Shown here: piece by piece, positions 9,442-63,601 of the stretch
Layout of the letters: the number at the start of each line of letters is the position of its first letter
How positions within the stretch are numbered: the stretch's first letter is position 1
Origin: Candidatus Anaerobutyricum avicola
GTDB taxonomy: Bacteria; Bacillota; Clostridia; Lachnospirales; Lachnospiraceae
Direction: 5' to 3'
DNA: 64,000 nucleotides
NCBI GenBank assembly: GCA_019113845.1
Contig: DXGQ01000042.1
Coordinates: 62,001-126,000 of the forward strand
The notes under the pieces: generated by a model
The model's database searches: none
What the model saw: the letters and a program-made list of their open reading frames with translations, nothing else
Told to the model about the DNA's origin: nothing
Translations under genes and position numbers: made by a program

Positions 9442-12400
9442 ATGATTCATTCATCTGGAAAACGCAGACGGTATAAGCGATATCTGTCAATGCTCATCGC
9501 TTTTATCATGGTTTGCAGCGTCTTCCTCCCCGCCTTTGCGGAAAATGCGGGAGGAAAGGCAGATGGTGAAGCGTCAGGCAAAGCGGTGGCAGTCACCACC
9601 TATGAATTCTACGCAGACGGCAGCCTGCACGACAGCCAGACCGTAAAAGACGGCGAGACGCTCAAAGAACCATCAGAGCCCAAAAAAGACGGAAGTACTT
9701 TTAAGGGCTGGTACACAGAAAAGGACGGCGGCTCCAAATTTACAGACTTCTCCAGGCAGACAGTGACGGAAGATAAGACCGTAAAACTGTATGCAGGCTG
9801 GCAGGAGAACGAAGAGCCAGAGGAAGCGAAGCAGCTGGACGAGAAATCCGATGAGACCAAAGAGACCGATATCGAAGAGACGGAGACGGTGGAATCGGAA
9901 GAACAGGGCAAAGCCGATGATCAGAACAGCGGCGACATCGGAGAAGACACAGAAGAGACTGTGCCAGACGAAAACGATTCATCCGAAAAAGAGGACGTTG
10001 TCAACGAGGAAGAAACTGACGCGGAAACCTCAGTGGAAGACAGCGAGGAAGCGGACGAGACAGATACCGACAAAGAAAATGTATCTGCCGACCAGTCAGA
10101 AAATGTTGCTTCTGAAACGGACAAGACAGAGGTATCAGAAACGTCAGAATCTTCCGACGTGAAAAAAGAAGATGTAGCGGAAGACGATACGGAAAAGTCA
10201 GAAGAGGAATCTGACAAGGAGAAGAATGACACAGAAAATGTGACAGACGAAAAGTCAGAAGCTGCGGACTCTTCCGACATTGCCGACACTTCGGACGACG
10301 TAGCGCAGAAAAAAGAAAATGTTACAAATGTACAGCCGCAGCTTTCACTCAATACCGGAATCTCACCGTTGGCTATCAGCGGGCCGGGAATAGTTAAAGT
10401 AGGCGAGACGATTGAATTAGTGGGAGGCGGGAATATTTTCAATTCCCATTCGTGGTCTGTTATATCAGGAGACGGAAGAGTTACTCTGACAAGTCAAAAT
10501 AGTCAGTCAGTAACTGTGATAGGTGAAAAAGCGGGAGAAATAAGATTACAACATATATATTCCGGAATGTTTTGGACGGAGATAGAATACTACACCATCA
10601 CTGTCACCGAGGCTTCTTCTTCTCAATGCTATGACCTGTACATGTATACCCTGATTCCGGGAAAAACGTTGAATTCAACGGGAACTCCGGATCAGACTTG
10701 GAACGGTATGGGTGTTGGAACCATTTCCAATGTTCTTCCGCCATCTTCCTATAATAATTCAGAAATTATAGATCCTGGAGATGGCAGTACCGGTGCTGTA
10801 ATTGTTGATACAGACAAAAATAATAGACCATATCCAGATATCCGTGTCGTAGAGGGCGGTGTAGAAAAAATATACCAATACGCAGAGACAGAAGAGGAGA
10901 AAATGAAGGAAGGCTACTACACCATAGACTGGATACGAGTTATTGTTGCTTCTGGAGCCAATGCGGGCAATAATCAGTGGAACCCGACAGTTTCTGATAA
11001 AACACCTACATTCCATCTGGACGGCATAGTGACTTTAAATGAAGAGAATGTTTACACGGTAAACTTTGCTTTGAAAGATGCAGGGGAAGAATGGTTTATT
11101 CCAGATGAACATTTTGCTACTCGGGTAAACGCCGGATACAAGGCAAGTGATCTTAAACGTCCGGATAAAGATAAAGCCCTGGATACAAGCGGAAAACCTA
11201 TAGAAGGATATCCTTATTCAGAGAATAAAGTAGTAAACGGCATCACCTACACTTTCGATGGCTGGTATACGGATGAAACCTGTACAACAAAGGTAGATTT
11301 TAACGACGAAAACTATAAGATCAATGAAAATACCACCTTCTACGCCCGGTATATTCCGGAAACACAGGATATCACGGTTGAAAAACAGGTAATAGGAACT
11401 ACTCAGGAAGATGCCACGAGGGAGTTTACATTTAACTGTGAGTATACAGATGCCTCGGGAGAGTCTCAGACGACAACACTGAATCTGAGTGACGATGAAA
11501 CAGGAACCATAGCAAATGTCCCGGTCGGCGCAGAGCTTACACTGACAGAGACGAATGCCAGTGGTTATGATACATCAGCGGAATATAGTGGCGAAACCAT
11601 TGAAGCGACTGAGACAACCGGTGACACAAGAACGATGACTGTCCAAACAACGAACGACAACCGTACAATTGTTGTCACCAATCGCAAGCAGGCTCCTACG
11701 ATTGGAGAGGATGAGAACTTTATCATCGTTGAGAAGAAGTTCACTGGTATCACTGAAGAACAGATTCCGGATAATTTCCAGATTACGGTGTCGGGCAGTG
11801 GACAGAATTATACATTAACGAAGAGCAACTACAATTGGAGCGAGACGATCAATGACGATGGTTCCATTGTCTGGCGTTGGAAGATCAGTGGAGTTGGAAC
11901 TGGCCAATATACCGTCAGCGAAGATAATCAAGAGATTGCTGACTACACTGTTACAACGACAGGCATCGGTGACAATGTTACCGTAAAAGCTTCGGATGTA
12001 ACGATTAATGAAGAAGAGTATGAAAACACATGCAGTAAAACAGAGTGGCCGGTTGGCGTAGAAGGAAATAAGAATTTTCTGTTCGCAGCGGCGCTGACGG
12101 GATCGAGTGGATGCATTGTGATTTCCTCAGAACCATTATCTGCGTCTGTGAGAGCTGCGGTAACAGCCAAAGTGACGACATATGGAAGTTGGCATGAACC
12201 GGTACAGTTTTATAGCGTTTCAGAAGATGGCCAGGAATATTCCATTGATGGGAAGATATTTAGATATGATGAAGCAAACGGTCAAATCATCATTGGTCAA
12301 ACAAGCGATTGGAAGCATGTCGCTTCTCTGAGCTACGATGTCACCGAGGCCAGCAACCCGGAGATTGCCATTACCAACTCTTACGAGAAGAACACTTCCA

Positions 12401-12837
12401 GCATTGAGGTTAAGAAGCTTGTCACCGGTAACCTGAGCGATTACGATAAAAAATTTGCATTTACCGCCAGCTGGCTGAGCAGCGATGGAACACAGAAAAC
12501 TGAGAACTTTTCATTAAGCCATAACGACAGTAAAACATTAAATGACTTACCAGTCGGCACGCAGGTAACCATCAGCGAGAACCGGGATGATTATGATTTG
12601 GTAAGCATTAAGCAGGGAAGTGCTGAACTGTCAGACAGTGAGATAACCTCAGATGGCACAAACAGTTCCTGCACCGTGACCGTCATAAATGAGCCGATGA
12701 CGATTACATTTACCAATGAGAAAGAAGCCATCGTTGACGTTGGTATCCGTATGGACAACCTGCCGTACATCCTTATGCTTGCCCTTGTGGCGGGAGGCGC
12801 AGCAGCGGCAGTGATTCTTCGCCGTCGCCGTGGCTAA
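9442..12837 (+). CDS. Large sortase-anchored adhesin / pilus tip protein, locus B
   Basis: A 1131-residue surface protein. ATG 9442 is chosen because AAGGAGGG lies 8 bases upstream and a signal peptide follows (KRRRYKRY, hydrophobic core, 'VFLPAFAEN'). Domains in order: an InlB-type (Listeria-Bacteroides) repeat at about 45-125 ('FKGWYTEKDGGSKF'); a highly acidic Glu/Asp/Ser/Thr segment at about 125-300; an Ig-like segment at about 315-385; a second InlB-type repeat near 600-650 ('FDGWYTDETCTTKVDF'); then at least three pilin-type beta domains ('ITVEKQVIGTTQEDATREF', 'IIVEKKFTGITEEQIPDNF', 'IEVKKLVTGNLSDYDKKF'). The C-terminus is a sorting signal (VDVGI, hydrophobic stretch, RRRRG) without Leu or Pro. 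It is probably the tip adhesin of pilus B. Confidence 0.9.
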   Translation: MIHSSGKRRRYKRYLSMLIAFIMVCSVFLPAFAENAGGKADGEASGKAVAVTTYEFYADGSLHDSQTVKDGETLKEPSEPKKDGSTFKGWYTEKDGGSKFTDFSRQTVTEDKTVKLYAGWQENEEPEEAKQLDEKSDETKETDIEETETVESEEQGKADDQNSGDIGEDTEETVPDENDSSEKEDVVNEEETDAETSVEDSEEADETDTDKENVSADQSENVASETDKTEVSETSESSDVKKEDVAEDDTEKSEEESDKEKNDTENVTDEKSEAADSSDIADTSDDVAQKKENVTNVQPQLSLNTGISPLAISGPGIVKVGETIELVGGGNIFNSHSWSVISGDGRVTLTSQNSQSVTVIGEKAGEIRLQHIYSGMFWTEIEYYTITVTEASSSQCYDLYMYTLIPGKTLNSTGTPDQTWNGMGVGTISNVLPPSSYNNSEIIDPGDGSTGAVIVDTDKNNRPYPDIRVVEGGVEKIYQYAETEEEKMKEGYYTIDWIRVIVASGANAGNNQWNPTVSDKTPTFHLDGIVTLNEENVYTVNFALKDAGEEWFIPDEHFATRVNAGYKASDLKRPDKDKALDTSGKPIEGYPYSENKVVNGITYTFDGWYTDETCTTKVDFNDENYKINENTTFYARYIPETQDITVEKQVIGTTQEDATREFTFNCEYTDASGESQTTTLNLSDDETGTIANVPVGAELTLTETNASGYDTSAEYSGETIEATETTGDTRTMTVQTTNDNRTIVVTNRKQAPTIGEDENFIIVEKKFTGITEEQIPDNFQITVSGSGQNYTLTKSNYNWSETINDDGSIVWRWKISGVGTGQYTVSEDNQEIADYTVTTTGIGDNVTVKASDVTINEEEYENTCSKTEWPVGVEGNKNFLFAAALTGSSGCIVISSEPLSASVRAAVTAKVTTYGSWHEPVQFYSVSEDGQEYSIDGKIFRYDEANGQIIIGQTSDWKHVASLSYDVTEASNPEIAITNSYEKNTSSIEVKKLVTGNLSDYDKKFAFTASWLSSDGTQKTENFSLSHNDSKTLNDLPVGTQVTISENRDDYDLVSIKQGSAELSDSEITSDGTNSSCTVTVINEPMTITFTNEKEAIVDVGIRMDNLPYILMLALVAGGAAAAVILRRRRG

Positions 12838-15940: not shown

Positions 15941-16729
15941 ATGAAAACGAAAATAAAAAAGACAGCGGCAGCGTTTCTGTTCGCACTTCTGTGTCTGACG
16001 GTTTTTCCAGCGTCGGTTTCGGCAGCAGACAGTGCGGAGAGGACAGCAAGTGTGGCGATTCCGGTCAGTGTGAATCTGTCAGGAGAAGTACCTTCTCCTG
16101 CGGAAACATATACGGTGACGATGCAGGCGGCAGAAGAAGGTACCCCGATGCCATCGGAGAACACGCTGACGATCACGGGAGCCGGAACAGCAGCTTTTCC
16201 GGCAGTCACCTATACGCAGCCCGGTATATATTGTTACACCGTTACACAGCAGGCGGGCAGTCATGCACGCGGACATTATGATAACACGGTATATTATGTC
16301 CGCATCTCCGTGACCAATGGAGAAAACGGCGGACTGGAAGCCGTGGCGGCGGTACATACAGACGCACAGATGACCAGCGTCAAGCAGGAGCTTACATTTA
16401 CGAATACGTATGATCCTGTGCCGCAGCCGTCTACGCAGACCCCTGCGGATACGACGAAAACGGATTCGTCTGATTCCGATACATCGTCGGGGAATCAATC
16501 TGATTCCAACATATCGCCGGATAATAAAGCGAATTCTGATGCAAGATCGGATAATCAATCTGACCCCGGGACAGATACGGGGAAGACCGATTCCGGTACC
16601 CGCTCAGCAAAGACCGGAGACAGTAATAATCCGATGTTATGGATGGGGATGCTCATCATTGCAGGAAGCGGTCTGGCAGCTGTAGCAGGAGATTATTGCC
16701 GGAAGAAACGCAGGAAACAGAATGGCTGA
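15941..16729 (+). CDS. Accessory pilin / wall-anchored base subunit, locus B
   Basis: A 262-residue secreted protein with a signal peptide (KTKIKKTAAA to 'SVSAADS'), one FctA-like domain at about 30-155 ('SPAETYTVTMQAAEEG', 'PGIYCYTVTQQAGSHARGHYD', 'LTFTNTYDP'), then a Ser/Asp/Thr/Asn-rich stalk at about 155-225 with imperfect repeats. The sorting signal is SAKTGD, a membrane helix and RKKRRK. This KTGD type differs from the xxxGI signals of the pilin and adhesin, so it may be anchored by another (housekeeping) sortase and form the pilus base. The locus A counterpart is frameshifted. GGGAGGAGGGG precedes ATG. Confidence 0.85.
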   Translation: MKTKIKKTAAAFLFALLCLTVFPASVSAADSAERTASVAIPVSVNLSGEVPSPAETYTVTMQAAEEGTPMPSENTLTITGAGTAAFPAVTYTQPGIYCYTVTQQAGSHARGHYDNTVYYVRISVTNGENGGLEAVAAVHTDAQMTSVKQELTFTNTYDPVPQPSTQTPADTTKTDSSDSDTSSGNQSDSNISPDNKANSDARSDNQSDPGTDTGKTDSGTRSAKTGDSNNPMLWMGMLIIAGSGLAAVAGDYCRKKRRKQNG

Positions 16730-16773
16730 ATATAACAGATCATTTTGTAAAGTATACAACTGATAACACAAAG

Positions 16774-16813
16774 AAAGCCAGCAGACCAGGTAATTCCGGG
16801 AGCTGGCTTTTTG
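16774..16813 (+). terminator. Terminator of pilus locus B
   Basis: AAAGCCAGC and GCTGGCTTT form a hairpin followed by a T run, right after the accessory pilin gene. Confidence 0.75.
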
Positions 16814-16839
16814 TACGAAGATAATACAGAGGAAAATAT

Positions 16840-17358
16840 ATGCTGAAAAACAAAGTAGATAAAAGAAAAAAGTCCGCATCAGAGATACACCCTCTCCACC
16901 CCGTCTACAACCGCACCTGGCGCACTTCCGTCCTCATCGTCACCTTCCGGAAATGCGACCTGGTCCCGGAAGGAGAGATCTTCAACATCCACATCCCCCA
17001 CGGCATCTCCTTTTATGGCCTCGGCGACCTGATGATGAAGATGGACCGCATCTACGACCTGCTGGACTACCCCCAGGCAGAGCTCCAGACCCGCTGCTGG
17101 AACGACGTAGAACACTGGAAAGGAACCCCGCTGGAGAGCGATGCGGGCTGGAACTACAGCGAAGACGCCGCACAGCAGTTCCATGACAAGATTGCTACCG
17201 GCGGCAGCCCGTCCGTCTACGTGGAGACCCGCTTCCGCCGCTACGGGAGCTGGCAGGGCATCCTGCAGGCAGGAAAGAAAAAAGCTTCCTACCGGAGCGC
17301 ACTGGAATTCCTCCACTACCTCACGGAGTATATTTCCGACAAAAAAACTGAAAAATAG
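16840..17358 (+). CDS. Protein of unknown function, copy 2 (downstream of pilus locus B)
   Basis: The 172-residue product is almost identical to the protein at 6117-6653 except at its N- and C-termini. The DNA match runs from about 16896 to 17389, against 6161 to 6653. No known domain is recognised; the protein is soluble, aromatic-rich and lacks a signal peptide. Its neighbour downstream is only the 3' part of an Rpn nuclease gene, so this copy of the module is truncated. The near-identity of two distant copies points to recent duplication or gene conversion. Confidence 0.7.
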   Translation: MLKNKVDKRKKSASEIHPLHPVYNRTWRTSVLIVTFRKCDLVPEGEIFNIHIPHGISFYGLGDLMMKMDRIYDLLDYPQAELQTRCWNDVEHWKGTPLESDAGWNYSEDAAQQFHDKIATGGSPSVYVETRFRRYGSWQGILQAGKKKASYRSALEFLHYLTEYISDKKTEK

Positions 17359-17390
17359 AATAAATTTCCATTTTTATCTTGAAATATGAT

Positions 17391-17686
17391 AAGAATACCT
17401 GAGCAGCAGGAAGGAGGAAGTGATGAGCATGCAGGGAGTGATCTTTGACGATACCATTCACAGAAAGAAGATAATGGAGAAAGTAGAAGCCCGGGCAGAA
17501 CGCAGAGGAGAGCGCAGAGGAGAAGCCCGAGGGAGAATCAAAGGTGAACTTAAGCAAGCACAGGAGACAGCATTGCGTCTGTATCATAGGGGATACGACA
17601 CAGCCACCATTGCTGAAATCGTAGATATGCCTGCGGAAAAGGTGGACGAATGGCTGTCGGGAGTTTTGGAGAAGGAAAAGGTATAA
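17391..17686 (+). pseudogene. Truncated Rpn nuclease gene (3' remnant)
   Basis: The sequence matches the last ~240 bases of the Rpn gene at 6710-7705: 'MSMQGVIFDDTIHRKKIMEK' and 'KGELKQAQETALRLYH' are shared. An Arg/Glu-rich stretch ('ARAERRGERRGEARG') is expanded by 12 residues. Compared with copy 1, about 810 bases (6654-7463) are absent, joining the unknown gene's end directly to the Rpn tail. The nuclease core is gone, so the fragment should be inactive; a short open frame from 17420 could still be translated. Confidence 0.75.
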
Positions 17687-17706
17687 AACAGGTCTGGTAA
17701 GACCGG

Positions 17707-17753
17707 AATAAGCTGTCATTATGTTCGGGGAACATAGTGGCAGCTTATTTTTG
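17707..17753 (+). terminator. Terminator after the Rpn remnant
   Basis: AATAAGCTG and CAGCTTATT, with inner ATGTTC and GAACAT, form a long hairpin followed by a T run. Confidence 0.75.
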
Positions 17754-18042
17754 TTTTACAGGAAATTTTGCTGGAAAATGTGTCAAAAAACCGTATATTT
17801 CTTCTCGTAATTTTTACACAAAATTTCCATAGAAAATGAATGAAATTTACATTGACTAGCTATACTATTGCCATCCGGTAGAGATTTGAGTGGTATTTCA
17901 CGAAGAAATTTCAGAGAAAACAACAGGATTCGTAGAAAATGTACAAAACAGATGAAACCAGTCAGAAAATCTGCCGGAGACAGGAAAGTCAGAGACAACA
18001 GACAAAGAGAAAAATACACGAGAGAGGGAGGAATGCAGGTTA
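17754..18042. other. Non-coding gap before the alarmone synthetase gene
   Basis: I see no gene here. It is A-rich and should contain the promoter and leader of the downstream RelQ-type gene, but no consensus pair of promoter boxes stands out. Confidence 0.4.
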
Positions 18043-18672
18043 GTGAGGGAAGATTCTTTTGAACAAAAGAGACGACAGCTGGAGCAGGAGCTGGAGGAAA
18101 GTGGTCTGAAAAAGATATATTCGGAGGTGATCTGGGATATCATCCCGGAGATCAACGAGATCAGCCAGCGTCTGTCCATGGAATACGGAAGACAGATCAT
18201 GGATAATATCTCCTGGCGGATCAAGTCGCCGGAGAGCATTGCTTTCAAATTAAAGAGGAAAAACAGGGAGATTTCTCTGGAATGTGCGGTCAGCACCCTC
18301 AATGATATGGCGGGGATCCGGGTGGTCTGCCCGTTTCAGGACGATGTGTATCGGATGGCAAAGGAGATCCGCAGGATACCGGGGCTTACTATTATTAAAG
18401 TAAAGAATTACATTTCCCATCCGAAGAGCAGCGGGTACCGCAGTATTCATGTGATCGCCGAGGCGCTGCACGGTGAAGAAAAGGTGCGGGTGGAGATTCA
18501 GGTCCGCTCCGTTGCCATGAATTACTGGGCAATCCTGGATCATCAGCTCTGTTATAAAAATGAGCGAAAGGAGACGGAGAAGCTCAGGAAAGAACTGAAG
18601 GCCTGCGCCATCGACATTGCGGAGATTGACAAGCGGTTTCTGAAATTGCGGAAGCAGATTGAAAAACTGTGA
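18043..18672 (+). CDS. Small alarmone synthetase (RelQ/YjbM type GTP pyrophosphokinase)
   Basis: A 209-residue single-domain (p)ppGpp synthetase of the RelA/SpoT nucleotidyltransferase family. It should transfer pyrophosphate from ATP to GDP or GTP under stress. Visible motifs: 'SPESIAFKLKRKN', 'LNDMAGIRVVCPFQDDVY' (acidic synthetase site), 'SGYRSIHVIAE' and 'VEIQVRSVAMNYWAILDHQL'. There is no hydrolase, TGS or ACT domain, which separates it from Rel. The start is GTG 18043 behind GGGAGGA (18026-18032). It appears monocistronic. Confidence 0.9.
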   Translation: MREDSFEQKRRQLEQELEESGLKKIYSEVIWDIIPEINEISQRLSMEYGRQIMDNISWRIKSPESIAFKLKRKNREISLECAVSTLNDMAGIRVVCPFQDDVYRMAKEIRRIPGLTIIKVKNYISHPKSSGYRSIHVIAEALHGEEKVRVEIQVRSVAMNYWAILDHQLCYKNERKETEKLRKELKACAIDIAEIDKRFLKLRKQIEKL

Positions 18673-28665: not shown

Positions 28666-29508
28666 TCATAATAACGTGCTGATAAGGTGAATGAGCATGC
28701 AGCAGAGGATGCCAAGGGAAGTCGGAAGGATGGCGGAGAGAGCGGTCCATCGCCAGCTTCCCGTTTCTTTTCGGATAGTCAGCAGGGTTGTGGAGCAGGG
28801 CCAGTGCATGAGGGAGAAGGCCATCGTGCAGAGCGCAGTGCTCAGGCTCCAGCCGTTGGCGGTAAAGAGCGTTTTCATTTCCATGAGACTTCCCGTCCCG
28901 GAGAGGCTGCCTTCTGCCAGGTAAGTCATGACGATGATGGGAAGGACAATCTCGTTGGCCGGGAATCCGAGGATGAAGGCCAGGAGGATGACGCCGTCAA
29001 GTCCCATGAGTCTCGCGAAAGGGTCCAGAAAATCAGAACAGAGGGCAAGAAGGCTTTCTCCTCCCGCCGTTACATTTGCCAGGAGCCAGAGCAACATGCC
29101 TGCCGGAGCGGCAACAGCGGCAGCCCGACCGAGGACAAACAGCGTGCGCTCCAGGATGGAGCGGAGGATGATCTTTCCAAACTGCGGGCGGCGGTAAGGC
29201 GGCAGTTCCAGCACAAAGGTGGAGGGAGCGCCTTTCAGAACGGTGGCTGACAGCAGGCGGGTCGCAAAAAAGGTGACGGCGATGCCGAAGAGGATGACGC
29301 CCGTAAGCAGAACTGCCGACAGAAGAGAAGCCGAAACAGTTCCCTCTGTCCCCACGAAAAACATGGTGATCAGTGCGATGAGAGTCGGAAATCGTCCGTT
29401 GCACGGTACGAAAGTATTTGTCAGGATGGCGAGCAGCCGTTCCCGCGGCGAGTCGATGATCCGGCAGCCGATGACTCCGGCGGCGTTGCATCCGAACCCC
29501 ATGCACAT
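28666..29508 (-). pseudogene. feoB: FeoB C-terminal fragment (separated by an inserted element)
   Basis: The 280-codon frame starts at the ATG of the conserved FeoB gate motif 'MCMGFGCNAAGVIG' and continues through the second gate and C-terminal membrane helices ('AAPAGMLLWLLANV', 'GFPANEIVLPIIVMTYLAEG', 'CTMAFSLMHWPCSTTL') to a normal end. The rest of FeoB is at 32205-33524. Precise removal of the 2,717-bp insertion would join the parts in frame into about 713 residues, normal for FeoB. As it stands the fragment has no ribosome site of its own. The upstream recombinase gene ends 15 bases before the ATG on the same strand, so reinitiation is conceivable. Confidence 0.88.
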
Positions 29509-29521
29509 GGGCTTCGGGTTA
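29487..29521. other. Left attachment site of the feoB element
   Basis: The crossover dinucleotide is CA on the + strand at 29504-29505, flanked by CATG on each side. On the element side, CATGGGCTTCGGGT (29506-29519) is the 14-base arm; on the feoB side the arm is the imperfect gene sequence. It shares 13 identical bases (CCATGTGCATGGG on the minus strand) with the right site. Confidence 0.8.
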
Positions 29522-29523
29522 TC

Positions 29524-30846
29524 TCAGAAAATGTCCCGGAGCAGGATGGTGATTTCCTCATCTTCCACGTAGATCCTGTCGACGAGGAGCGCCAGGCAGG
29601 CGCGCTGTCCGGAGAGAGGCGGCTGCGTCAGCAGGCGGCGTAGATCTGCGCCGGCAGAAGGAGCGTCTGTTGCCGAAGATTGCTGTGGCGCTGGCGGAGC
29701 CGAAGAACCTTCTGTGTGGAGCTTTTCAAACGGAATCTTGCAGAGGGCATCGATGACACAGGCATCAAGAAGCGTGATCTTCCATTTTTTATTTTGGCAG
29801 CGCGAAGAATCCGGGCCGCTTTTGTCACTGACGGGCGCTTTCCCGCTGCGACAGAAATGCTTGCTGCCGTGGATGGTCCCAACGCAGTGGGCATCTTTCC
29901 TGTCGCGGCCGTGGATTTTTCCGCTGCAGCTGTAGTTCCCGTGTCCTCCGTAGAACCGGGCGCCGCATTTGCCGCAGTACAGAAGACCGGAGAGCAGCGT
30001 CCGGGGAACGAACGGATGTCTTGCCGGAAGGCGGGGGTCCTGTGCGGCGGCCTGTTTTTTTGCGAGAGATTCCCTGCGTTTCCGGAAGATTTCCTGCACT
30101 TCATAGAATAACGATTCCGGTATGATGGGAGTGTGGCAGCCGGGATATGTCTGATTTTGAAACTTTACTTTTCCGATATACACTTCATTTTGGAGTACAT
30201 TTCTTATGAGCGTATCGCTCTTCCAGTTTCCGTATTTGGTCGTATAGTGCGCCTGCATGTAGCGCTGGCAGTCGCAGACAGAATGTCCCTGACGGAACCG
30301 CTCGAAAAGTTCGCGTACCTGTGCGGCTTCCGATTCGTTGACGATGAGGCGGCCGTCCCTGTAATCGTAGCCGGTGGGAGCAGTGGGACCGCCGTGGTAA
30401 TAGCCGTTTTTTGCCCGGGCAAGCCGTCCCATGGTGAAACGCTCGGTGATCTGCTCCTTTTCCAGCTGGGCAAACACTGAGAGCATGCCGATCATTGCGC
30501 GCCCCAGAGGGGTGGAAGTGTCAAAGTTTTCGCAGACGGAGATAAAATCCACCTGTTTTGCAAGAAAATAATCTTCAATGAGCAACAGCGTATCCTTCTG
30601 GCTCCGGGACAGACGGTCCAGCTTGTAGACGATGACGACGTCGTATTCCGGGAGATGGGACAGCATATCCTGCAGTGCCGGACGGCGCAGGGTGCCTCCG
30701 GAGTAGCCGCCATCGGTGTAAATGCGGCCGATGGTGATATCCTTTGCCGCACAGAAGGCGGTGAGGCGGTCGGTCTGCTCCGCGATACTGTAATTTTCTC
30801 TCTGATGTTCTGTGGAGACCCGTACATAGCAGGCGGCGGTAGGCAT
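29524..30846 (-). CDS. Large serine recombinase of the feoB element
   Basis: A 440-residue site-specific recombinase. The N-terminal resolvase domain has the catalytic Ser in 'YVRVSTEHQ', then 'DGGYSGGTLRRPALQDML', 'VIVYKLDRLSRSQKD' and 'GRAMIGMLSVFAQLEKE'. A recombinase domain (about 165-270: 'APTGYDYRDG', 'RNVLQNEVYIGKV') and a zinc ribbon ('CGKCGARFYGG' with later Cys residues) follow. The C-terminus is Ala/Pro/Gln-rich with no obvious long coiled coil. Its stop lies a few bases from the left attachment site. It is expected to integrate and, perhaps with a directionality factor, excise the element. Confidence 0.93.
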   Translation of the reverse strand: MPTAACYVRVSTEHQRENYSIAEQTDRLTAFCAAKDITIGRIYTDGGYSGGTLRRPALQDMLSHLPEYDVVIVYKLDRLSRSQKDTLLLIEDYFLAKQVDFISVCENFDTSTPLGRAMIGMLSVFAQLEKEQITERFTMGRLARAKNGYYHGGPTAPTGYDYRDGRLIVNESEAAQVRELFERFRQGHSVCDCQRYMQAHYTTKYGNWKSDTLIRNVLQNEVYIGKVKFQNQTYPGCHTPIIPESLFYEVQEIFRKRRESLAKKQAAAQDPRLPARHPFVPRTLLSGLLYCGKCGARFYGGHGNYSCSGKIHGRDRKDAHCVGTIHGSKHFCRSGKAPVSDKSGPDSSRCQNKKWKITLLDACVIDALCKIPFEKLHTEGSSAPPAPQQSSATDAPSAGADLRRLLTQPPLSGQRACLALLVDRIYVEDEEITILLRDIF

Positions 30847-31054
30847 GAGAGGTTCCTCCCTGTCAGTAAAATGCAGTGTTCCTTATATGCCTATGTGCTG
30901 TTTTTGCATTTATGTGACAGAGCAGATGTCTGGTATCGGTTACATTTTTCATAAGAATCTGCCTGTGTTTCCGGCTGTCGCGGGAGAGTCGCGCGGACCG
31001 GGAGAGAACCGGGACAACCCTGCCTGCATAAGTATACAGGGAGGGGGGAGCAAT
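30847..31054. promoter_or_regulatory. Divergent intergenic region of the feoB element
   Basis: These 208 bases separate the recombinase (minus) from the lysis genes (plus) and should hold both promoters. Consensus boxes are not clear to me. No repressor gene was found in the element. Confidence 0.4.
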
Positions 31055-31213
31055 ATGAGTAAGGTGATCATCCGGCTGCCGGATCATACGGTGGTAAATC
31101 CGGAAGATATCACAGTCAGACGAAACTGGAAAAGTGAAGAGCTGTACCGGCTGTTGGAGGAAGCGGCGGCCGGGGAAGCTGTGAAGGAGGAAAATGATGC
31201 AGATAAGCAGTAA
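31055..31213 (+). CDS. Small 52-residue protein of the feoB element
   Basis: ATG 31055 follows a GGGAGGGGGGAG ribosome site. The product ('MSKVIIRLPDHTVV' to 'EENDADKQ') is acidic at its C-terminus and has no membrane helix. It overlaps the holin start by 20 bases. In Firmicute prophages small proteins of this size often precede the holin; it could also be a recombination directionality factor for the serine recombinase. Neither role can be shown from sequence alone. Confidence 0.65.
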   Translation: MSKVIIRLPDHTVVNPEDITVRRNWKSEELYRLLEEAAAGEAVKEENDADKQ

Positions 31214-31415
31214 AACAAAAAATTGGCTGAAATGTGCCGGGATCCGCGCGGCGAGAACTGTGGCACAGACGGCGGTGGCGGCGATCGGTACGGCGACCGT
31301 GTTTGCCGAAGTGGATACGGTGATGACCATCTCGACGGCGCTTCTTGCCGGTGTGGTTTCTCTGCTCACGTCGATAGCGGGACTGCCGGAATGTAAGGAG
31401 GAGAGAGATGAGTGA
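31194..31415 (+). CDS. Phage-type holin
   Basis: A 73-residue protein resembling the r1t-like phage holins of Clostridia: 'WLKCAGIRAARTVAQTAV', two hydrophobic helices (about 17-38 and 44-63) and the family-like end 'SLLTSIAGLPECKEE'. It should oligomerise in the membrane and release the endolysin. GAAGGAGG precedes the start (ATG 31194 or 31197). It overlaps the endolysin start by 8 bases. Confidence 0.8.
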   Translation: MMQISSKTKNWLKCAGIRAARTVAQTAVAAIGTATVFAEVDTVMTISTALLAGVVSLLTSIAGLPECKEERDE

Positions 31416-32199
31416 CTATTACCCGGATATTTCTCACCATCATACAGTGGCTGACTGGGCGAAGGTGGAGAAAAACTGTCCGTTTATGATCACAAAAGCG
31501 ACGCAGGGAACTTCGTTTGTGGACAGCGCCATGGCGGGGATCGTAAAACAGTGTGAAAAAAGGGGGATCCCCTACTGGCTGTATGCCTATCTCAATAAGG
31601 GGGACGAACTGGCGCAGGCGAAGTTTCTGGTAAAGACCTGTAAAGATAGGATCGGAAAACATTTCATGGGATATGTGCTGGACGTGGAGGCGGGAAACGC
31701 TGCCTCCGGCGTGCAGAAAGCCATGGATTATCTGAAGACACTTGAGTATAAAATGATGTTGTACACCATGTACGCACAGTATGATAAGTATAAAAATATC
31801 ATCGCCATGCGTCCGGGCAAATGTGCCTGGTGGGAGGCGCGGTATGGGCAAAACAACGGAAAATATGACCCGGATTATCCCTGCCACGTCGGCGCGGATC
31901 TGCATCAGTACACGTCCAATGGTTCCTGTCCGGGTTTTGATGAGAAGGTTGACCTGAACCGGATCACCGGCCAGGGCAAAAAGGAGAAATGGTTTATCAC
32001 CCCGAAAAAGAAACCTCCGAAAGGGATCACAGAGTATCTGCACAATCTGGGAGTGGGTGCGGGGGAGAAAAATATGTCCAGAATCGCAGCGGCAAACTGT
32101 CAGGCGAAAGAAGTGCGAAAAGCGCTGTTTGCTCTGGCGGAAGAAGAGAAGCTGATTCTGCCGACGGATCTGAATCCGTGGGAAGAAACGGAACAGTAA
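31408..32199 (+). CDS. GH25 lysozyme endolysin
   Basis: A 263-residue peptidoglycan muramidase of glycoside hydrolase family 25. Visible motifs are 'YYPDISHHHTVADW' (Asp), 'PFMITKATQGTSFVD', 'GYVLDVEAG' (catalytic D-x-E) and 'WEARYGQNN' with 'DLHQYTSNG'. Residues about 200-263 form a C-terminal region of the kind that binds cell wall. There is no signal peptide, so release would depend on the holin encoded just upstream. The strong GGAGGAGAG site fits high expression. The stop is only 7 bases from the right attachment arm. Confidence 0.92.
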   Translation: MSDYYPDISHHHTVADWAKVEKNCPFMITKATQGTSFVDSAMAGIVKQCEKRGIPYWLYAYLNKGDELAQAKFLVKTCKDRIGKHFMGYVLDVEAGNAASGVQKAMDYLKTLEYKMMLYTMYAQYDKYKNIIAMRPGKCAWWEARYGQNNGKYDPDYPCHVGADLHQYTSNGSCPGFDEKVDLNRITGQGKKEKWFITPKKKPPKGITEYLHNLGVGAGEKNMSRIAAANCQAKEVRKALFALAEEEKLILPTDLNPWEETEQ

Positions 32200-33524
32200 A
32201 CGCGACACCCGAAGCCCATGCACATGGTCAGCGCCTGTTTCCCGCAGGCGCGGCAGCATTGGAAGGGTTTATCTAGATTGTAGGCGATCCGGGGCAGAAA
32301 ACCGATGTCCTCCAGGATAGTAAAAAGAGGAAAGAAGATCGCCATCGGCGGCAGCATGACGGAGACGACCCATGCCAGTACACGGTAAAGTCCCAGAACC
32401 AGAAGGCCGTGCAGCCAGGCGGGGGCGTGGAGCCGGAAAAAGAGGCTGGTCAGGCAGTCCTCGATATAGAACAGTCCGTCAGACAGAAGGGCAGACGGAT
32501 AGTTTGCGCCGCTGATCGTGATCCAGAAGATCACTGCCAGCAACAGAAGCATCAGCGGAAAGCCGGTGATCCGGCTGGTAAGAAGGCGGTCTATCTTAAA
32601 ATCGGTCCTGCGGTAAGAAGGATTTTCCAGGGTGATGACGCCCCGGCAGAGCCTCTCCGCTGTGGAGACGATGGAACTGACGACAGCGTCCTCCCACTGT
32701 CCGGTATCCGGATACTCCCGCAGGAGTTGTTTTTTTGCCAGAGCGAGACCGCGCAGAAGTTCCGGATCCCTGAGAAAATCTTCTCCCAGACTGCCGGATA
32801 ATTCCCGCAGCAGAGAGGAATCCTGATTCAGAAGCCGGAGGCTTAACCAGCGGCTGTCCGGCTGTCCGCCGGTTTTTTCTTCCAGAAGCGGCTCTACCAT
32901 ATGGATGGCGTACTCCATGGCTTCCGGGTAGCGGATCTTAACGGGAGTTGCCGGACAGGAGGAAGCTGTCACCTGATCTAAAGCGTTAAGAAGAGGCGCA
33001 AGCGTCTCTTTTTTGCGGGCGCAGACGCCGATGACCGGAACACCCAGCCGGCGGGACAGGAGAGGCAGGTCCAGCCGAATCTGTTTCTTTTCTGCCTCGT
33101 CCATCAGGTTGACGCAAACGATGACCCGGGAAGAGATCTCCATCGTCTGTAAGACCAGATTCAGATTTCTTTCCAGACAGGTGGCGTCGCAGACGACGAC
33201 AACAGCGTCCGGTTTTCCGAAGCAGAGGAAGTTTCTGGCAATCTCCTCCTCCGCAGAGTGTGCCAGCAGAGAGTACGTGCCGGGAATGTCCACCAGCACG
33301 TAAGAGTTTTCGGAAGAATGACAATACCCCTGCGCGTTCGCCACGGTCTTGCCCGGCCAGTTTCCTGTGTGCTGATTCATGCCGGTCAGAGCGTTGAAAA
33401 TGGTGCTTTTTCCCACGTTTGGATTGCCTGCGAGGGCGATGACCTTATCTTCGGGATGCTGGCGGATGATGTGCAGTCCGGAATCCAGAGCGTGGATGCC
33501 GACAGAACGGTTAGTCAGACCCAT
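32100..33524 (-). pseudogene. feoB: FeoB N-terminal fragment (GTPase and first membrane helices)
   Basis: Residues 1-440 (to 32205) are genuine FeoB, the ferrous iron transporter. The G1 motif is 'GNPNVGKST', G3 'DIPGTYSL' and G4 'NLMDEAEKK', with the helical insertion domain to about residue 270 and then the first membrane helices ('FPLMLLLLAVIFWITISG', 'GLLVLGLYRVLAWVVSVMLPP'). It ends in 'LTMCMGFGC'. The last 34 codons (to 32100) are read into the element antisense to the endolysin gene and are foreign. The start overlaps the feoA stop, with GGAGGA upstream. Without the C-terminal half, transport should be lost. Confidence 0.88.
32205..32236. other. Right attachment site of the feoB element
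   Basis: ACCCGAAGCCCATG (32207-32220) is the element-side arm, CA at 32221-32222 the crossover, and CATGGTCAGCG the feoB side. The element-side arm is the exact reverse complement of the left element arm (29506-29519). Confidence 0.8.
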
Positions 33525-33994
33525 GGCAGTTCCTCCGACGTCTGTGGTTTTTGCTGTTCCCGTCTGTGCCGGCGATGGTTCCGATGGTTTTTGTTGTTTC
33601 TGTCTGTGCCGGCGATGGTTCCGATGGTTTTTGCTGTTTCTGTCTGTGCCGGTGATTGTTCCGATGGTTTGTCTGTGTCAGCACTTTCGCCCGTAATCAG
33701 AATCTGGCGACAGTCTTTGCGGCGCAGAGCGATTACAGCGCCCCGGACAAGATAGGCGGAAGGGTCGCCCAGAGGGCTTCTTCCGATACAGACCACTCTG
33801 GTGCCGGGAATCATGCCAAGGTCCAGAAGACGGCGGCGTATACTGCCGGAGCAAAGAAGAGCGGAGACGGCGGCGTGCCTCCCGGGCGTCATGGCGTCGA
33901 GCGTGTCGGTTTCTGTGCCGGTGCGGCGGGTTCTATGGAAACGGGCGCAATCCGCGCCGCAGTTTTTGTCCCTGTGCCTGAAAAAAGGATACAT
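33515..33994 (-). CDS. feoA: FeoA-like protein with a repeat-derived C-terminal tail
   Basis: A 159-residue protein; FeoA is usually about 75-85. The SH3-like FeoA core covers about residues 35-100 ('HAAVSALLCSGSIRRRLLDL', 'GMIPGTRVVCIGRSPLGDPS', 'YLVRGAVIALRRKDCRQILI'). A ~55-residue tail follows, encoded by a 40-bp tandem repeat. As 40 is not a multiple of 3, successive repeats are read in different frames ('TAKTIGTIAGTDR', then 'NKNHRNHRRHRR'). The tail runs into the feoB start, so the stop overlaps feoB by 10 bases and couples the two. FeoA is thought to interact with FeoB. A GAGGAGG site precedes ATG 33994. Confidence 0.8.
   Translation of the reverse strand: MYPFFRHRDKNCGADCARFHRTRRTGTETDTLDAMTPGRHAAVSALLCSGSIRRRLLDLGMIPGTRVVCIGRSPLGDPSAYLVRGAVIALRRKDCRQILITGESADTDKPSEQSPAQTETAKTIGTIAGTDRNNKNHRNHRRHRREQQKPQTSEELPWV
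33562..33680. repeat. 40-bp tandem repeat at the 3' end of feoA
   Basis: Two nearly identical 40-bp units (33562-33601 and 33602-33641), starting GTCTGTGCCGGCGATGG, are followed by a diverged partial third unit. Only one base differs between the first two, so the expansion is recent. It lies inside the feoA coding tail. Confidence 0.85.
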
Positions 33995-62746: not shown

Positions 62747-63601
62747 ATGGCAAGACCCAGCCGCTGTCGGCGTGTGTGCGAGGAACCGGTTTATGACAGC
62801 TTTGCCCCCTGTGGAAGAGCTCAGACGGAGACCGTTACGCTGACGGTAGATGAATACGAGGTCATACGCCTGGTGGATTATGAGAAGAAGACCCACGGGC
62901 AGTGTGCCTCGCAGATGGATATTTCCCGGACGACGGTGACGGAGATGTATGAGAGAGCCCGCTATAAGATTGCGGACTGTCTGATCAACGGAAAATTGCT
63001 GCGCATCAGCGGCGGCAACTATCAGGTCTGTCGGGGCCGGGCGGCCGGAGAGCGGGGCTGCGGACGGCGCTGCCGGTGGATGCAGCCAAAGTTCCCGGAT
63101 GGAGAGACGGAAACAGCGAAGAGAGAGAAAGGAGCGCATACTATGAGAATCGCAGTAACTTATGAAGATGGAAATGTATATCAGCATTTTGGTCACACCA
63201 GCCAGATGAAGCTGTACGATGTGGAAGATAATAAAGTAGTGCATGAGGAAGTGGTGGATACTGCCGGAAACGGCCACGGCGCGCTGGCAGGATTTCTTGC
63301 CGGTCTGAAAGTGGATATGCTGATCTGCGGCGGGATCGGAGGCGGCGCACGAACAGCTCTTGCCGAAGCAGGCATCGAACTGTATCCGGGCGTGAGTGGA
63401 AATGCAGACGCCGCAGTGGAAGCATTTCTTGCCGGAAACCTCGATTATGACCCGGACACCCTTTGCAGCCATCACGGCCATGAGCACCACGGAGAAGGCG
63501 GTCATTGCGGCGATCACGAGCATCACGGGGAAGGCGGCAGCTGTGGCGGACATGGGCATCATGGCGGAGAAAGTCACTGCGGCAGTCATGGATGCCACTA
63601 G
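62747..63601 (+). CDS. Fusion of DUF134 DNA-binding domain with NifX/NifB-like domain and His-rich tail
   Basis: A 284-residue protein. Residues about 1-100 are DUF134 ('MARPSRCRRVCEEPVYDSFA', 'LTVDEYEVIRLVDYEKKTHG', 'QMDISRTTVTEMYERARYKI'), a helix-turn-helix family. Residues about 133-240 are a dinitrogenase iron-molybdenum cofactor (NifX/NafY) domain ('MRIAVTYEDGNVYQHFGHTS', 'VVDTAGNGHGALAGFLAGLK', 'LICGGIGGGARTALAEAGIE'). The last ~40 residues are His/Gly/Cys-rich ('HGHEHHGEGGHCGDHEHH'), suited to metal binding. ATG 62747 follows GGAGGTG. An internal ATG at 63143 with AAAGGAG (63128-63134) could also yield the NifX part alone (152 residues). Confidence 0.88.
   Translation: MARPSRCRRVCEEPVYDSFAPCGRAQTETVTLTVDEYEVIRLVDYEKKTHGQCASQMDISRTTVTEMYERARYKIADCLINGKLLRISGGNYQVCRGRAAGERGCGRRCRWMQPKFPDGETETAKREKGAHTMRIAVTYEDGNVYQHFGHTSQMKLYDVEDNKVVHEEVVDTAGNGHGALAGFLAGLKVDMLICGGIGGGARTALAEAGIELYPGVSGNADAAVEAFLAGNLDYDPDTLCSHHGHEHHGEGGHCGDHEHHGEGGSCGGHGHHGGESHCGSHGCH

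Follow-up and report, generated by a model that had tools for sequence, protein, structure and literature searches.

A four-gene serine integrase element at one feoB site in four related species of Lachnospiraceae: a probable domesticated mini-prophage

Results

We analysed a 64,000-nucleotide stretch of Candidatus Anaerobutyricum avicola DNA (assembly GCA_019113845.1, contig DXGQ01000042.1, positions 62,001 to 126,000), hereafter the window, in which the feoA-feoB pair on the minus strand is interrupted by a small serine recombinase element inside the codons for M-C-M-G-F-G. The genome of the window is G000; other G-codes denote genomes and L-codes loci or contigs compared, with one genome per species. 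Four open reading frames (ORFs) of the element are taken as genes: an integrase and, divergently, orfS, a holin gene and a gene for a GH25 muramidase, the last three overlapping end to end. The features are:

28666..29508, minus strand: feoB 3' part, 280 residues from an internal ATG, with Gate and FeoB_C domains (Pfam)
29498..29510: core repeat on the attR side, crossover dinucleotide CA/TG at 29504-29505
29506..29519, plus strand: attP half-site CATGGGCTTCGGGT, 14 bp, the perfect inverse of 32207-32220
29524..30846, minus strand (the same as feoB): serine integrase, 440 residues, Resolvase and Recombinase domains, phrog_95
30847..31054: divergent promoter region, with AC-N17-CATA starting 47 nt before orfS
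31055..31213, plus strand: orfS, 52 residues, candidate recombination directionality factor (RDF)
31194..31415, plus strand: r1t-type holin, 73 residues
31408..32199, plus strand: GH25 muramidase (endolysin-like), 263 residues, with a C-terminal extension of unknown family
32100..33524, minus strand: feoB 5' part, a 474-residue ORF running on into the element, with FeoB_N, FeoB_Cyto and part of Gate (Pfam)
32207..32220, plus strand: attP half-site ACCCGAAGCCCATG, 14 bp
32215..32227: core repeat on the attL side, crossover dinucleotide CA/TG at 32221-32222
33515..33994, minus strand: feoA, overlapping the feoB start

An earlier, sequence-only reading of this DNA had placed the cut in the same feoB codons, with direct repeats at both edges, and this is correct: the core repeat CCATGTGCATGGG (feoB strand) occurs as two exact 13-bp copies spaced 2,717 bp apart, which is also the length of the element between the crossover dinucleotides. 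The attP proposed there is likewise reconstructed, since joining the circle in silico (ACCCGAAGCCCATG / CATGGGCTTCGGGT) gives 14-bp perfect arms flanking TG. As is usual for serine integrase sites, attP and attB share a non-palindromic 2-bp overlap (TG) flanked by inverted repeats, here with 14-bp arms in attP and 5-bp arms in attB. Because the attB arms are already symmetric over 5 bp (CCATG/CATGG), 9 extra bases are left in each attP arm, and a gain of 9 was achieved by none of 200,000 arm pairs drawn at random from the window. Joining the flanks in silico yields a single 713-residue FeoB frame through ...QALTMCMGFGCNAAG..., as had been claimed; precise excision would thus restore the reading frame, as in a gene-splitting regulatory prophage.

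The description of the element as self-contained stands for a recombination unit with lysis genes; Pfam and PHROG detect no replication, packaging, structural or repressor gene among the four ORFs. A complete temperate phage was rejected on these grounds, as was a satellite of the phage-inducible chromosomal island type, there being no replication, packaging or capsid-redirecting gene in the set. Rfam gave no match in the window at the gathering threshold. Two tandem repeats were seen outside the element: a 40-bp unit in 3.2 copies (93% match) at 33545-33670, at the 3' end of feoA just before feoB, and a 36-bp unit, also in 3.2 copies, at 63475-63590.

G009 (L017), G014 (L019) and G021 (L018) carry these four genes too, identically oriented and inserted at the identical codon; we refer to the four copies, that of the window included, as mini-elements. 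Compared with the window by local tblastn, the integrase is 52-64% identical, the holin 80-94% and the feoB halves 63-83%; the muramidase shows 73-74% in G009 and G021 and 82% over residues 1-209 in G014 (an assembly 89% complete with 7% contamination). A feoB orthologue is present in 8 of 24 genus genomes (best E 1.1e-115 or lower; the next genome stands at 1.6e-23). It is split in the four mini-element species and in G007 and whole in G008, G004 and G006, so the uninterrupted gene that the sequence-only reading had proposed to look for in relatives exists. G007 retains orfS; its integrase is interrupted by an in-frame stop, neither a holin nor a muramidase gene lies beside the integrase, and about 3 kb of other genes separate it from the feoB 3' half; at 9530-12669 of this locus (L020), an ATPase-like gene (by eye) and others lie beside the stop-bearing integrase.

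In an rpoB tree of 14 of the 24 genus genomes, G000, G009, G014 and G021 form one clade (support 98/97), with G007 and G008 nearest. In the integrase tree these four again group together (98/95), G007 being their neighbour (100/99), and a single branch (100/99) sets all nine feoB-site integrases apart from the rest; the feoB 3'-half tree also groups the four species (81/87). Among the 24 genus genomes, the holin-lysin set is seen beside an integrase only in these four. Across 397 genomes drawn from the larger family, 7 carry the integrase at E <= 1e-60, and the holin-lysin set accompanies it in G000 only.

Counted from the centre, the perfect attP arms measure 14 bp in G000, 12 in G021 and in G009, 7 in G007 and 5 in G014; the palindrome sought by the sequence-only reading thus recurs in G009 and G021 as 12-bp perfect arms. 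In L162 and L163, two metagenomic phage contigs with an uncut attP that contains the feoB core (at 11427 and 11400, respectively) and adjoins a related coiled-coil integrase, symmetry extends to 19 and 21 bp from the centre, is broken near the core and holds at 17 and 19 of 28 positions. G248 and G289 have long att arms similar to these (by eye). Over about 9-16 bp, the beginning of the mini-elements is moreover similar to the right-hand half of attB. The mini-element sites therefore look as if they had been shortened and made alike, which would fit a loss of direction. The joined site could also form a hairpin, which in G021 and G009 is accompanied by A and T tracts of the kind seen in bidirectional terminators; integrase recognition is the simpler reason for the symmetry, because the halves lie 2.7 kb apart when the element is integrated.

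The integrase carries Resolvase (PF00239, 7e-38) and Recombinase (PF07508, 6e-13) domains, and the RVST around the nucleophile is invariant in 8 of 8 alignment rows. The zinc ribbon PF13408 scores 20.9 bits, under its cut-off of 25.3, and C291, C294, C307 and C350 are invariant in the 8 rows. Identity to the A118 and EFC-1/phiFC1 integrases is 38-43%; the top NCBIfam match, CcrB, lies far under cut-off, and the Ccr cut-offs are not reached. The earlier assignment to the serine recombinases is borne out by these domains, but the enzyme is without the coiled-coil motif typical of large serine integrases. The motif is absent from all four mini-element integrases (alignment A1), in which some 50-70 residues are missing after the zinc-ribbon region, ahead of a C-terminal end (RACL...I) that is retained; the replacement linkers vary in length, that of G014 being long and of low complexity. 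The missing stretch corresponds to the coiled coil, since, in alignment to the A118 integrase (4kis), the G248 enzyme continues through the coiled coil whereas that of the window stops at residue 299. AlphaFold models, used solely to tell helix from coil (mean pLDDT, the model confidence score, 66 and 68, which is low), show helices at 354-373 and 378-400 in G248 and coil in G000.

The motif is present in all ten rows of alignment A4, in the second integrase ORF of G007 and, by eye on C-terminal tails, in all 27 full-length relatives from IMG/VR, of which a regular expression scored 20 (it also missed L110). These 27 include several near-copies and 6 sequences also in A4; they come from a search with alignment A1 that returned 28 relatives, L183 being truncated, where a single-sequence search had returned none. 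The tally, which leaves out six more distant integrases (G052, G054, G058, G194, G209 and G254), is 32 other loci with the motif and 4 mini-elements without. Removal of the coiled coil from the LI integrase brings attB x attP (1.6%) and attL x attR (2.2%) recombination to about equal levels, according to the deletion results in PMC10754689.

Nei-Gojobori values for pairs among the four mini-element species show that the integrase (dN/dS, the ratio of nonsynonymous to synonymous divergence, 0.13-0.24), the holin (0.03-0.14), the muramidase (0.05-0.11, one pair saturated) and both the 5' (0.08-0.19) and 3' (0.06-0.15) halves of feoB are under purifying selection, although the halves are separated. 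The matched part of the feoB halves is free of stops in all five split genus genomes (in G009, the 3' half is cut by the contig end at 227 of 280 residues), whereas about 13 stops are expected in neutral simulation at 0.3 changes per site (minimum 3 in 200 runs).

Halves that are open in all five genomes, including G007 with its broken integrase, and constrained would also be expected if FeoB functioned as two polypeptides, the split being tolerated and excision unnecessary; moreover, the 3' half starts with ATG shortly after the end of the co-oriented integrase gene. Against this, no clear Shine-Dalgarno sequence is seen by eye before the internal ATG in five species, the ATG sits inside the attR hairpin in the three species folded, and the tails that close the 5' half in G000, G021 and G007 are unrelated. 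We regard a two-polypeptide FeoB as quite improbable.

The sequence-only reading had proposed that excision reversibly switches ferrous iron uptake on and off. This is weakened by two further feoB genes in the G000 genome, intact open frames of 748 and 676 residues, given which excision would not switch the whole of ferrous iron uptake. In the form in which excision and reinsertion respond to iron or oxygen and so tune FeoB, the proposal draws on the in-frame restoration of the gene and on the loss of the coiled coil, which predicts two-way recombination. It seems to us improbable, given the paralogues and the lack of a Fur-type site before feoA (searched with a crude pattern); besides, the circle has no replication gene, so that repeated switching would tend to lose it.

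The orfS protein has no match in Pfam, PHROG or NCBIfam. Beyond the genus, a profile built from five orfS proteins and run against the ORFs of all loci collected picks up homologues in three loci with a split feoB (L109, L110 and L111) and in the IMG/VR contigs L156, L157, L158 (with near-copies L159 and L160) and L177 (all at E <= 2e-11), L161 being marginal. The integrases of L156-L160 and L177 are related to that of the window, and no feoB core was found in the stretches examined of these contigs. In L157, L158, L177 and L109, orfS lies on the strand opposite a nearby helix-turn-helix gene (repressor-like, by eye). The strand opposite a repressor-type gene is the usual place of the first lytic genes, and it is this position that makes orfS a candidate directionality factor. 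The mini-elements have no helix-turn-helix gene among their four ORFs, and orfS heads the holin-muramidase operon.

Upstream of orfS, AC-N17-CATA is found in all four mini-elements (twice in G014, by tandem duplication) and is absent in G007; in the window, 2% of 75-bp stretches contain AC-N16/17-CATA. The motif is, presumably, close to the sigma-K promoter form; it could serve in sporulation or be a promoter of old phage origin. The sigmaK/sigmaE type of gene is present in 14 of 24 genus genomes, including all four mini-element species (best E <= 1e-80), although all 24 sigma results fall under the curated cut-off, as does the B. subtilis control.

These observations bear on a special form of the mini-prophage reading favoured below, namely developmental excision in a terminal cell, of the skin or SPbeta-spsM type. 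A sporulation sigma factor would activate orfS, holin and muramidase in the mother cell, where orfS and the integrase would excise the element; the mother cell would then make FeoB, the lysis genes would help to release the spore, and the spore would inherit the integrated form. The promoter-like motif and the sigma genes are in its favour, and it would account for the vertical inheritance, the lysis genes and the lack of replication genes. There is also a parallel in SPbeta, where excision requires the 58-residue sprB and this gene is driven by a mother-cell promoter whose start lies 20 nt upstream of the start codon (PMC4191935). Skin-type units are ordered attL-int-rdf-attR in the account of PMC6957869, and the C. 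difficile skin factor (PMC5025042) is a further known parallel. On the other side, CATA stands no more than 62 nt ahead of orfS in all 7 of the loci from outside the genus, 2 of which have AC-N16/17-CATA (L157 and L177, by eye, have no match), so that the motif may be an old phage promoter; the sigma matches are below cut-off; no consistent sigma-E/K-like site precedes feoA; and a mother cell has no evident need for FeoB. We consider the terminal-cell version possible but rather doubtful.

The holin and the lysin, on which the sequence-only reading is silent, are the slowest-evolving genes of the element. The search made for muramidase relatives in IMG/VR returned none, and the closest muramidases outside the mini-elements are chromosomal genes of the genus itself, 207-233 residues long, in G005, G008, G018 and G007 (58-65% identity), with no phage genes seen by eye among their neighbours; further matches are in G022 (51%), G004 (43%) and five other family genomes (51-57%). 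The chromosomal GH25 muramidase of G008 (L150, 8870-10131), 65% identical to that of the element, adjoins what we take to be a Fur/PerR-like regulator. In contrast to this, r1t-type holins are widespread, 52 of 397 family genomes having one at E <= 1e-8; a GH25 homologue is found at 4 of 78 loci with such a holin (some of them near-copies), namely the window's own and three at 24-33% identity. The feoB-site remnant L109 has different lysis genes, an ELLD lysin and Phage_holin_4_1, and the feoB-core phage L162 also carries other lysis genes (by eye). The idea that the lysis pair is a simple leftover of a feoB phage is thus unsupported. Since the close muramidases are chromosomal and feoB-site phages carry other lysis genes, the pair may have been assembled rather than left over.

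A feoB orthologue (E <= 1e-80) occurs in 68 of the 397 family genomes. Ten orthologue-bearing genomes with short feoB frames, out of a larger number, were examined; insertion at these feoB codons is clear in G248, G289, G357, G101 and G142 (8.6-15 kb), and none was found in G369, G024, G321 and G249. The integrases of G357 and G142 are merely 28% identical to the window's, and that of G101 has no match at E 1e-4. That such distantly related integrases split one feoB site makes the site a hotspot. The 8.6-15 kb elements that split the feoB codons in L113 (G357), L114 (G101) and L120 (G142) belong to another serine recombinase group. In L116 (G252), feoB is split at 16417-18080 by a 1.7-kb remnant with serine recombinase pieces, one gene of which is 68% identical to a neighbour gene in the window, presumably MgsA-like.

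A hotspot used by at least two integrase groups invites the explanation that a circulating mini-element inserted recently and independently in each species. The integrase tree, however, follows the host clade, and the holin-lysin set is confined to the four species within the genus and to G000 among the seven family genomes with the integrase. Synonymous divergence (dS) spans 0.88-1.88, where defined, in the integrase, holin and muramidase genes and 1.17-1.68 in the feoB halves, the element thus resembling feoB; defined values for the host genes alongside lie between 0.65 and 2.4, and those for rpoB between 0.48 and 0.58. We hold separate recent insertions to be very unlikely.

Discussion

The same site, orientation and gene set recur in four species, and what is new here is an element at one feoB codon across all four species of the nearest rpoB clade. 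We think it probable, although by no means assured, that the element is a domesticated, vertically inherited and still excisable mini-prophage. It would derive from a temperate phage specific for feoB, of which the recombination unit (integrase, att sites and orfS) persists together with a holin-muramidase lysis pair. The integrase would still excise the 2.7-kb circle and restore feoB in some cells, which would explain why feoB has not decayed. Because the coiled coil is missing, attL x attR recombination should not be strongly blocked; excision and reinsertion may both occur at a low rate, or orfS may stimulate excision. Since the circle carries no gene for its own replication and the lysis operon begins with orfS, excision would most likely be tied to lysing cells, the integrated form being passed down the germ line. 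Switching of feoB back and forth and excision in doomed cells alone are both compatible with what the sequences offer.

More tentatively, and with less than even confidence, we suggest that loss of the coiled coil turned a one-way integrase into a two-way enzyme, that the att sites collapsed to short, attB-like symmetric sites, and that the host has kept the result as a self-sufficient gene switch, coupled to the holin and muramidase and passed through speciation.

Several observations weigh against the mini-prophage reading. The G000 assembly contains solely attL and attR, with no excised joint or empty site, and the genome has the two intact feoB paralogues. The 20-bp attP core common to G000, G009 and G021 has no exact match in IMG/VR, and the attP symmetry of G014 is weak. 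Deletion of the coiled coil greatly lowers the activity of the LI integrase and abolishes that of phiC31 in the experiments given in PMC10754689, and the mini-element integrase may accordingly be weak or dead; we expect a two-way but weak enzyme, a dead one being possible. The candidate factor orfS is loosely conserved, at 29-59% amino acid identity among the four, with dN/dS of 0.17-0.31 in four pairs and saturation in two, and its profile finds no match in L162, L163 and L164, which have the feoB core. The halves of feoB are open in G007 despite the broken integrase, so that open halves alone are no proof of excision. Four taxa offer few tree topologies, and the feoB 5'-half tree leaves the four unresolved with G007 and G008; its branches measure 0.05-0.12 in G000, G009 and G021, 0.36 in G007 and 0.59 in G014, where this part of the gene evolves faster, and 0.5-0.9 in the uninterrupted G004, G006 and G008. 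Since G008 is close to the four and has an uninterrupted feoB, the element was either lost there or came later. Finally, equal dS is weak evidence for co-inheritance because synonymous sites are near saturation; the selection figures speak for constraint better than for age.

Part of this evidence is what would be expected of a functionless prophage relic in slow decay, with this feoB as a lost third paralogue. In G007, the integrase is broken and no lysis genes stand beside it; in G014, att symmetry is weak and the 5' half evolves fast; in G210, of another genus, feoB_C is truncated next to an integrase; and G000 has its two intact paralogues. A split feoB with decayed recombinase and sites, which the sequence-only reading had named as a finding that would refute its interpretation, is indeed present in one of the four genus relatives, G007 (stop, 7-bp arms). 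G009 and G021 show the opposite, with an open integrase and 12-bp arms, and G014 combines an open integrase with 5-bp arms. Since the integrase, the holin, the lysin and the two parts of feoB are all under purifying selection across the four species, and three of these have symmetric arms of 12-14 bp, a decaying relic is unlikely in our view.

The mini-prophage reading gains definition from comparison with known systems. The window's integrase shares the order of catalytic, recombinase and putative zinc-ribbon domains with the large serine integrases of A118, LI, phiFC1 and EFC-1, and short inverted-repeat att sites with a 2-bp overlap; unlike these, the mini-element lacks the coiled-coil motif and a surrounding phage, and its att arms are 12-14 bp in three species, one half resembling attB. 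In skin (sigK) and SPbeta (spsM), excised in the mother cell, a serine recombinase element also splits a host gene that can be rejoined in frame, with a small RDF-like ORF and vertical inheritance (probable for the mini-element), but the mini-element has only four genes, targets an iron transporter and carries a holin and a muramidase. The Listeria comK prophages are larger, and the mini-element differs from them also in that none of its four ORFs encodes a structural, replication or repressor function. To our knowledge, the gene-splitting prophages skin, SPbeta and comK are all far larger. The comK prophages are alike in that a gene is split and restored by excision (active lysogeny, as PMC6957869 treats it). 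Two-way recombination without an RDF, as expected for the mini-element, is found in TnpX, TndX and CcrA/B, which we take to be RDF-independent; unlike them, the integrase belongs to the feoB-site clade and misses the Ccr cut-offs. No feoB-splitting prophage was found in the literature among the matches listed.

The feoB MCMGFG codons emerge as a hotspot for integration, and a conserved lysis pair is found linked to a recombination unit without a virus. The four-gene version lies at one codon in at least four species, and its integrase has dropped the very motif that in vitro work identified as enforcing direction. With this element, the way in which natural serine integrases turn reversible could be put to a direct test, and a compact two-way recombinase may come out of the mini-element integrase.

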